Positions 29,982 to 31,686 of a stretch of DNA of 64,000 nt are shown here, piece after piece. The stretch is from Hellea sp. GTDB taxonomy: Bacteria > Pseudomonadota > Alphaproteobacteria > Caulobacterales > Maricaulaceae. The DNA is taken from positions 1 through 64,000 of the forward strand of contig JAHDGM010000008.1 of NCBI GenBank assembly GCA_020627655.1, given 5' to 3'. Position 1 is the first letter of the stretch. Every line of letters starts with the position of its first letter. Position numbers and translations under genes: made by a program. The notes beneath the pieces were generated by a model. It saw only the letters and a program-made list of their open reading frames with translations. It did not search any database and was not told where the DNA came from.

Positions 29982-30011
29982 AAAAAAACCCGCTCTTTTA
30001 ACGGAGCGGGT
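29982..30011 (-). terminator. Attenuator-type intrinsic terminator in the ilvD leader
   Basis: Minus strand ACCCGCTC-CGTTAAAA-GAGCGGGT-TTTTTT; perfect 8-bp stem plus T-run; 44 nt before the ilvD ATG. Confidence 0.88.
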
Positions 30012-30044
30012 CATATTAGCCTGTTTTCAGCTTTACGTCCCGCT
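30005..30044 (-). promoter_or_regulatory. Candidate antiterminator pairing in the ilv leader
   Basis: AGCGGG in leader codons 43-44 (30044-30039) is perfectly complementary to CCCGCT in the terminator 5' arm (30010-30005). Confidence 0.6.
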
Positions 30045-30170
30045 TACGCCTCTCACAATAAGAAGCAGCACAAGTAAAACCACAGATACAAGAATGACGT
30101 TCACAGGAATGACCTGTGTTTGTATTGCCACTTTTACTTTTGGCGTATTTTCGTGTCTTGGATCCCGCAT
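30033..30170 (-). CDS. Branched-chain amino acid-rich leader peptide (45 aa), ilvL-like
   Basis: Hand translation: MRDPRHENTPKVKVAIQTQVIPVNVILVSVVLLVLLLIVRGVSGT*; SD GAAGG 6 nt upstream; stop about 20 nt before terminator stem; too short for the ORF track. Confidence 0.75.
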   Translation of the reverse strand: MRDPRHENTPKVKVAIQTQVIPVNVILVSVVLLVLLLIVRGVSGT

Positions 30171-30283: not shown

Positions 30284-31444
30284 TTATTTGGATGTTTGCG
30301 AAAAAGAATTCTCAAAATCTCCAGTAAGATCGTTGATTTGCTCCATCCCTACGGAAATCCGGATGAGGTTATCCTTTATCCCGGCGTTTTGACGCGCTTC
30401 AGGGGCCATGCCTGCATGGGTCATGATGGCCGGCTGGCAGATCAGGCTTTCGGTTCCGCCGAGCGATGCGGCGAGGGAGAATATTTCCAGGCCCGACAGA
30501 AAAGTTTTAGCCGTTTGCAAATCACCTTTGATCTCAAAGCTTAGCATAGCGCCGGGGCCGGATTGCTGACGTTTGATAAGCTCGGCTTGGGGATGATTGG
30601 AAAGACCGGGGTAATAGACGCGGTCAACTTGATCATGGCCCGTTAAATATTCAGCGAGCAGCGCGGCATTGGCTTCCTGAATGTCCATTCGGGCGGGCAG
30701 GGTGCGCAGGCCGCGTAAGGTCAGCCAGGCGTCAAAAGGCGCACCTGTTAATCCGGCGCAATTAGCCCACCACCGCAGCTGCTCGACAATGTCTTGATCT
30801 TTGGCGATTATGCAGCCGCCGACCACATCGCTATGACCATTGATATATTTCGTATTGGAATGAAGAACCATATCACAGCCAAGTTCCAGCGGCTTTTGGC
30901 GAAGCGGGGATAGGAATGTATTGTCACATACGGACAGTGCGCCGATTTTACGGGCCGCTTCAGAAATCATCGCAATGTCGACAATGCGCATTAAAGGATT
31001 TGACGGTGTTTCGATAAATACCATTTTGGGCTTGAGCGCCATGGCGGCTTTGACAGCAGCTGTATCACCTTGATCTACAAATTCGACTCGCACGCGGCCT
31101 TGAAGCGCGCGGTGGGTGAACAGGCGGTGGGTGCCGCCATAACAGTCATGAGGCGCAATGATCAGGTCATCAGCCTTTAAAAGGTTAAGGCAAAGATCAA
31201 TGGCGGCCATGCCGGAATTGACAATCTCGCCGCCCAGCCCGCCTTCAAGTTCAACAAGAGAGCTGGTGAGGATTTCCCGGGTCGGGTTTTTGGTACGGCC
31301 ATAATCAAAATCACCCTTGGTCTCTATATCCTGCCAAATATAAGTAGAGGATGTGTGCAGCGGGGCTGCTACAGACCCGGTTGACGGATCCATGCCAATA
31401 CCGGCGCGCACTATACGGGTTTGATCGGACTTATTTTTGGTCAT
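30284..31444 (-). CDS. Cys/Met metabolism PLP-dependent enzyme (cystathionine beta-lyase/gamma-synthase type)
   Basis: HTSSTYIWQDIETKGDFDYGRTKNPTRE; LHSNTKYINGHSDVVGG PLP-lysine motif; start at MTKNKSDQ. Confidence 0.92.
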   Translation of the reverse strand: MTKNKSDQTRIVRAGIGMDPSTGSVAAPLHTSSTYIWQDIETKGDFDYGRTKNPTREILTSSLVELEGGLGGEIVNSGMAAIDLCLNLLKADDLIIAPHDCYGGTHRLFTHRALQGRVRVEFVDQGDTAAVKAAMALKPKMVFIETPSNPLMRIVDIAMISEAARKIGALSVCDNTFLSPLRQKPLELGCDMVLHSNTKYINGHSDVVGGCIIAKDQDIVEQLRWWANCAGLTGAPFDAWLTLRGLRTLPARMDIQEANAALLAEYLTGHDQVDRVYYPGLSNHPQAELIKRQQSGPGAMLSFEIKGDLQTAKTFLSGLEIFSLAASLGGTESLICQPAIMTHAGMAPEARQNAGIKDNLIRISVGMEQINDLTGDFENSFSQTSK

Positions 31445-31686
31445 TTGAATTTTTCCAAATATGCGCAGAATAATGAAGCGACGGCTAGGATTATTGTGCC
31501 TCCAACAAAACTGTTGGACACTCTCTCTTTCCAAAGATCAAAAAAACTTACTTGACTTGATACGGAATCATAGAATGTAAAAAAAGCGCCGAATAGTTCG
31601 ACCCCAATAAATAAAATACTGAAGTATAGAAGGAAATTTTTCCAAAATTTCTTAGATGTATTTATTTTCACACCAGTATCCCGCAA
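31441..31686 (-). CDS. Small (81 aa) predicted membrane protein between metX and the PLP enzyme
   Basis: Two hydrophobic segments; overlaps metX by 19 nt and the downstream start by 4 nt (ATGA). Confidence 0.6.
   Translation of the reverse strand: MRDTGVKINTSKKFWKNFLLYFSILFIGVELFGAFFTFYDSVSSQVSFFDLWKERVSNSFVGGTIILAVASLFCAYLEKFK

Follow-up and report, generated by a model that had tools for sequence, protein, structure and literature searches.

The window, by which we mean the whole 64,000-nt stretch analyzed here (contig JAHDGM010000008.1, positions 1 to 64,000), comes from the 2.59-Mb draft genome of a Hellea species; Hellea balneolensis belongs to the Maricaulales within the Alphaproteobacteria. 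On the minus strand of the window a short leader region heads an apparent ilvD-ilvC-ilvB-(ACT subunit)-leuA-leuC-leuD-leuB operon, whose genes were assigned by the Pfam matches given in parentheses:

29938-28271, minus strand: ilvD, the first structural gene (PF00920, PF24877)
28256-27231, minus strand: ilvC, 14 nt after ilvD (KARI_N, KARI_C)
27188-25464, minus strand: ilvB, acetohydroxyacid synthase large subunit (TPP_enzyme N, M, C)
24980-24678, minus strand: ACT-domain small subunit, ilvN/ilvM-like (ACT_5)
24633-20004, minus strand: leuA, leuC, leuD and leuB, on the same strand with no large gap (LeuA_dimer, Aconitase, Aconitase_C, Iso_dh)

ilvB and the ACT subunit are separated by two small hydrophobic ORFs that match no Pfam family (25462-25190 and 25293-24973, minus strand), and in one relative (G009, L264) ilvB directly adjoins the ACT gene without them. 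Upstream of the leader the same strand carries a metB-like gene (30284-31534, Cys_Met_Meta_PP), and beyond it a metX-like abhydrolase gene behind a SAM riboswitch of the S-box type (RF00162, 32687-32788, minus strand), here in an alphaproteobacterium. The leader region itself consists of the following parts:

30227-30198, minus strand: putative promoter, -35 CTTGAA at 30227-30222, 18 nt, -10 CTTAAG at 30203-30198 (by eye, in the aligned same-genus leaders L001-L005)
30181-30177, minus strand: Shine-Dalgarno sequence GAAGG of the leader ORF (sequence)
30170-30033, minus strand: leader ORF of 45 codons, MRDPRHENTPKVKVAIQTQVIPVNVILVSVVLLVLLLIVRGVSGT (ORF listing; homologous or analogous leaders in relatives)
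30143-30126, minus strand: PKVKVA motif, leader codons 10-15 (amino-acid conservation in 13 of 27 leaders)
30098-30054, minus strand: control codons 25-39, 14 of 15 Val, Leu or Ile (sequence)
30070-30045, minus strand: candidate pause hairpin for RNA polymerase, covering the last of the control codons (codon resampling)
30044-30039, minus strand: AGCGGG, the putative antiterminator strand (strand 2), leader codons 43-44 (sequence)
30037-30012, minus strand: spacer hairpin including the stop codon (summed folding energy against shuffles)
30012-29982, minus strand: intrinsic terminator including its T-run (terminator scan; model match)

As described in an initial annotation of this DNA, the leader ORF follows the Shine-Dalgarno sequence GAAGG, begins with ATG at 30170 and ends after 45 codons with TAA at 30035-30033 (minus strand). 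A Shine-Dalgarno sequence, an ATG and a stop codon are seen in the relatives as well, which points to a translatable ORF between the promoter and the first structural gene. The putative promoter was placed by the conservation of its motif upstream of the ORF in the five same-genus leaders, and a consensus promoter scan listed no minus-strand promoter at 30227-30198. The terminator that the initial annotation had proposed between the leader stop and ilvD is present as GACCCGCTC-CGTTAAAA-GAGCGGGTT-TTTTT at 30012-29982, with CCCGCT (30010-30005) as its 5' arm and AGCGGG (29994-29989) as its 3' arm, and the R1 model matches the window at 30089-29982 with 92.7 bits. The run of 14 Val, Leu or Ile in codons 25-39, likewise noted before, is far beyond the controls, since 9 or more of 15 were reached in only 10 of 1160 shuffled ilvD upstream regions, with a maximum of 10. 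Complementarity between the AGCGGG of leader codons 43-44 (30044-30039) and the CCCGCT of the terminator 5' arm (30010-30005) is also there, but this 6-nt match is not significant in the window alone (p = 0.109 relative to shuffled versions of this stretch) and is convincing only through being kept and compensated in relatives. Finally, the CACAGG/CCTGTG hairpin singled out by the initial annotation is found at 30118-30102, but its conservation is unclear (p 0.04-0.94 in five same-genus leaders), and we did not retain it as a conserved element.

A DNA search of 61 genomes yielded matches to the leader in 11 of them, from five genera. In addition, a one-genome-per-species collection was scanned with a pattern (at least 119 stretches) that demanded GCGGG/CCCGC/GCGGG, and elements with at least 10 Val, Leu or Ile among the 25 codons preceding the stop were kept; in the resulting set of 27 elements the invariant pairs and the overall Val/Leu/Ile content are thus partly given by construction of the pattern. 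A Vibrio stretch (L082) was dropped as a false positive, and the contig of L047 ends at the terminator. Among the matches listed, the Val/Leu/Ile-rich stretches precede ilvD, also in other genera of the family, or ilvC in two cases and, in L011, a short ORF with ilvD-ilvC-ilvB behind it; their carriers, where named, are Hellea, Robiginitomaculum, Hyphomonadaceae and unclassified alphaproteobacteria, and the element of Hellea balneolensis DSM 19091 is contained in L010 and L090. The order metB-leader-ilvC is kept with ilvD missing in G003 and G009, the latter continuing from ilvC with ilvB, the ACT gene and leuA, while in G027 the element precedes a 123-aa ORF followed by ilvD-ilvC-ilvB. Because the leader is kept before ilvC without ilvD in G003 and G009, it marks the operon head and not ilvD; the position upstream of ilvD, as first annotated, is correct for the window, but the switch is to be assigned to the ilvDCB...leuACDB operon, at whose head it lies. 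Secondary full-length R1 matches in the same genomes (L182-L192) were rejected, those inspected looking like ordinary terminators after other genes. The AGCGGG:CCCGCT columns of the 27 elements showed no covariation beyond shuffles, as the set had been selected by that very pattern, and because its pairs are partly a matter of construction the evidence for pairing rests on a sample that was anchored on ilvD instead.

For this unselected sample 160 genomes of the order were searched for ilvD, and the region upstream of each of the 67 hits was taken. A simple terminator was present in 58 of the 67 regions, and 53 of these 58 have a leader in which 9 or more codons of a 15-codon window specify Val, Leu or Ile, compared with 10 of 1160 dinucleotide-shuffled controls, a shuffle statistic that is inflated by the relatedness of the sequences. 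Several, if not most, of the remaining regions have a leader and an imperfect terminator visible by eye, and the device is absent at four ilvD loci (G089, G107, G023, G160). The run of end-product codons is thus conserved across relatives, both in this sample and in the profile of the 27 elements. Pairing of strand 2 with the 5' arm was better than shuffled (p<0.05) in 36 of the 53 leaders, with the same inflation through relatedness, and strand and arm change together between genera (AGCGGG:CCCGCT, GGGAGCGG:CCGCTCCC, CCGGAAGCGG:CCGCTTCCGG, CGGGAGCGG:CCGCTCCCG, GGGAGC:GCTCCC), with a CGGGCTC:GAGCCCG pairing recognized by eye in L197. The initial annotation had suggested looking in relatives for the Val/Leu/Ile codons and for this pairing, and since these proved conserved or compensated, the comparison strongly supports its reading of the leader as a probable attenuator.

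The spacing of these parts was equally regular. Among the 27 elements, which were chosen for their Val/Leu/Ile content and not for where the run ends, these residues account for 59-100% at each codon from -21 to -7 (27/27 at -10 and 26/27 at -9) and for 7% (2/27) at -6, and in this numbering AGCGGG occupies codons -3 and -2. The front edge of a ribosome reaches approximately 12 nt beyond the first nucleotide of the codon in its A site. A ribosome with codon -7 in this site would therefore end at about the last position before AGCGGG, while one at -6 would cover AGCGGG, and the sharp end of the run 12 nt before the antiterminator strand is as the footprint of a stalled ribosome would predict. 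In the unselected set the distance from the last control codon to strand 2 has a median of 14 nt, that from strand 2 to the stop codon varies from -3 to 30 nt, and the stop codon is never less than 22 nt from the terminator arm. Being tight to the last control codon and loose to the stop, strand 2 is therefore placed by the stall point and not by the end of the ORF; in G014 (L020) the stop even precedes AGCGGG, yet AGCGGG is kept outside the reading frame. The distance rule for strand 2, together with a design that puts the stop codon in a stem, allows the ribosome footprint to be read off the sequence itself.

Between codon -1 and the terminator arm, the spacer is predicted to fold into a hairpin (summed dG -95.4 versus -39.2 +/- 7.7 for shuffles, 0/1000), which usually includes the stop codon and nests within the pairing of strand 2 with the arm, resulting in a longer antiterminator. 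The AGCGGG:CCCGCT antiterminator of the initial annotation agrees with the compensated pairing in relatives, but its stem appears to be longer and its spacer to be a hairpin in itself. Resampling codons for the same amino acids revealed a further hairpin over the last control codons (summed dG -189 versus -139 +/- 12, 0/500), which may act as a pause hairpin. Neither hairpin had been noted in the initial annotation, and both statistics are inflated by the relatedness of the sequences. Strand 2 can also pair with the upstream leader, but a conserved 1:2 pairing was rejected because the partners differ between species. Leader codons 2-4 (MNP/MHP) of L048, L120, L010 and L007 contain a CCCG(C) complementary to strand 2, by which strand 2 could be kept hidden in an untranslated leader. 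When the stalled state was folded, using only the RNA between the ribosome edge and the 3' arm, 26 of 27 nascent RNAs formed the antiterminator, while with the ribosome at the stop codon the terminator formed in 27 of 27. Sequence and folding thus indicate an antiterminator that would exclude the terminator and be covered once a ribosome reached the stop codon. For about half of the elements, folding of the full RNA energetically favors the terminator, so antitermination would have to be kinetic, as it likewise is in classical attenuators.

We propose that the element is a ribosome-mediated transcription attenuator heading the ilvDCB...leuACDB operon, a reading to which we assign a probability of roughly 0.94. 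Its codon content, geometry, alternative pairings and operon-head position are provided by the comparison of genomes, and from these we infer actual transcription, translation, stalling and a response to starvation. In the proposed sequence of events, RNA polymerase would make the 45-codon leader with a ribosome trailing behind. If charged tRNA-Val, -Leu or -Ile were short, the ribosome would stall in codons 25-39 with its front edge just short of AGCGGG, and the free AGCGGG would pair with the emerging 5' arm of the terminator, with the stop-codon hairpin stacked inside; once this antiterminator had formed, the terminator could not, and the operon would be read. If the three amino acids were plentiful, a ribosome at the stop codon would mask AGCGGG together with some of the stop-codon hairpin while leaving the more distant terminator arm free, so that CCCGCT would pair with its own 3' arm and transcription would stop. 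In this way up to eight ilv and leu genes may answer to one translation-sensing switch.

The composition of the control region bears on what such a switch would sense. Its 405 codons in the 27 elements specify 142 Leu, 109 Val and 57 Ile (308 in total) compared with 5 Phe, 3 Met and 8 Ala. Leucine outnumbers each of the other two, and Leu or Ile predominates at codons -10 and -9, as might be expected if only one amino acid (e.g. leucine) or the general translation rate were sensed; however, nearly all leaders contain all three residues, and the operon supplies Val and Leu and also, by way of ilvDCB, Ile, which makes this narrower form of attenuation unlikely in our view. A synonymous codon bias in the control region also favors the attenuator reading. 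GTG supplies 75 of the 109 valine control codons (69%), whereas its share is 28% in the downstream genes and ilvD and 25 of 70 toward the N-terminus of the leaders; ATT supplies 51 of the 57 isoleucine control codons, compared with 53% downstream and 8 of 23 toward the N-terminus. Such a bias could result from selective tRNA charging or from the hairpin in the control region; the theory of selective charging, as well as the synchrony provided by a hairpin near control codons, has been treated previously (PMC1183508). These codon-level signals, the preference for GTG and ATT and the hairpin, constitute a natural test set for the tRNA-charging theory versus pause-hairpin constraints.

The PKVKVA motif has no place in the attenuation model, where no role for it is apparent. 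In 13 of the 27 leaders, from several genera, PKVKVA(T/A/S)R is kept at the amino-acid level with synonymous changes while the adjoining linker is not, and in these 13 the KVKVA codons have a pN of 0.09 and a pS of 0.77, compared with 0.66 and 0.68 for the linker codons, a difference that is inflated by picking leaders through the motif. These values would be in accordance with a leader that acts as an attenuator in cis and at the same time encodes a functional peptide, marked by PKVKVA, acting in trans or on the ribosome. However, the motif is missing in 14 of the 27 leaders and no target is known, so we regard such a double function as quite improbable, and an extended version of it, in which PKVKVA is under purifying selection and the synonymous choice of control codons is tuned to the pause hairpin beyond tRNA charging, as similarly speculative.

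The same motif, kept in 13 of 27 leaders, might suggest a conserved small single-transmembrane protein that lies upstream of ilvD by chance, with the terminator simply ending the metB transcript: the Val/Leu/Ile run resembles a transmembrane helix, and metB is located upstream on the same strand here and in several relatives. The initial annotation had itself named a stable, conserved membrane protein as the reading that would contradict attenuation, but the leaders diverge widely, with unrelated sequences between genera, and in some of them charges break the hydrophobic stretch (LLELFIGGVLSLEVLLISIKKSGI, RLLLVVGVEIINISNTSGM). No conserved amino-acid sequence was found through the hydrophobic segment, the control codons having a pN of 0.43 and a pS of 0.60 even when only the 13 motif-bearing leaders are considered. 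Moreover, Val, Leu and Ile almost wholly replace other hydrophobic residues, and the synonymous bias, the strand-2 complementarity and the AGCGGG outside the ORF in G014 are features of the RNA. Since approximately 1 kb parts the end of metB from the leader in G007 (L003), the terminator is not just that of metB. We regard a chance membrane protein as very improbable. A metabolite riboswitch or protein-binding leader with an incidental ORF, which a terminator and an alternative hairpin upstream of a biosynthetic operon could also indicate, can practically be dismissed, as none of the 4227 families of Rfam release 15 matches the leader at the gathering score, although the neighboring SAM riboswitch was detected as the sole match in the window, and as codon content, frame and pairing strands are conserved in place of an aptamer-like core.

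An attenuator of the kind proposed here is classical in mechanism. The ilvGMEDA, ilvBN and leu attenuators of Escherichia coli have a leader peptide rich in branched-chain amino acids, a terminator and an antiterminator. The present element appears to share these parts, and its candidate pause hairpin may correspond to the hairpin near the control codons that provides synchrony there. Its leader, however, is longer (45 codons), strand 2 is located within that ORF or straddles its stop codon, following the last control codon at a distance of only about 12-14 nt, and the antiterminator stem takes in the stop codon. Closer in lineage, attenuation of ilvBN in the related alphaproteobacterium Caulobacter crescentus, as described in PMC4117421, involves a leader with Ile and Val codons in tandem, ribosome stalling and a Rho-independent terminator (Tarleton et al., 1994); going by that description, both systems place an Ile/Val leader upstream of an ilv operon, but the Caulobacter leader controls ilvBN, whereas the present one heads ilvD/ilvC-ilvB-leuACDB. 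Likewise, the leader peptide predicted computationally for alphaproteobacterial ilvB (Vitreschak et al., 2004, as noted in PMC1273637) is a branched-chain amino acid leader from the same bacterial class but precedes a different gene. The ilvB-II motif of Corynebacterium, ilvB-OMG and the Leptospira ilvB motifs, for which transcription attenuation has been proposed (PMC10272879), are by their description also uORFs rich in branched-chain codons before ilv genes, although they occur in unrelated lineages and precede ilvB and not ilvD. No paper on an ilvD leader peptide, whether from Caulobacter or from other Alphaproteobacteria, was found in a literature search of partial coverage with few subscription journals. 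The ilvD-heading leader of Hellea and its relatives throughout the Maricaulales thus appears to be an undescribed, order-wide addition to the known leader-peptide attenuators of branched-chain amino acid synthesis.

The pattern scan also returned switches of other composition. In L113, L136 and L058 a GCGGG..CCCGC..GCGGG terminator switch precedes sulfhydrylase-like or metH-like ORFs without a Val/Leu/Ile-rich leader and is possibly a methionine-related riboswitch, while in Psychromonas hadalis (L069) a short leader, LMKKIFVLLPTFLLMLIACGW, with the same pattern is found before a leuA-like ORF.
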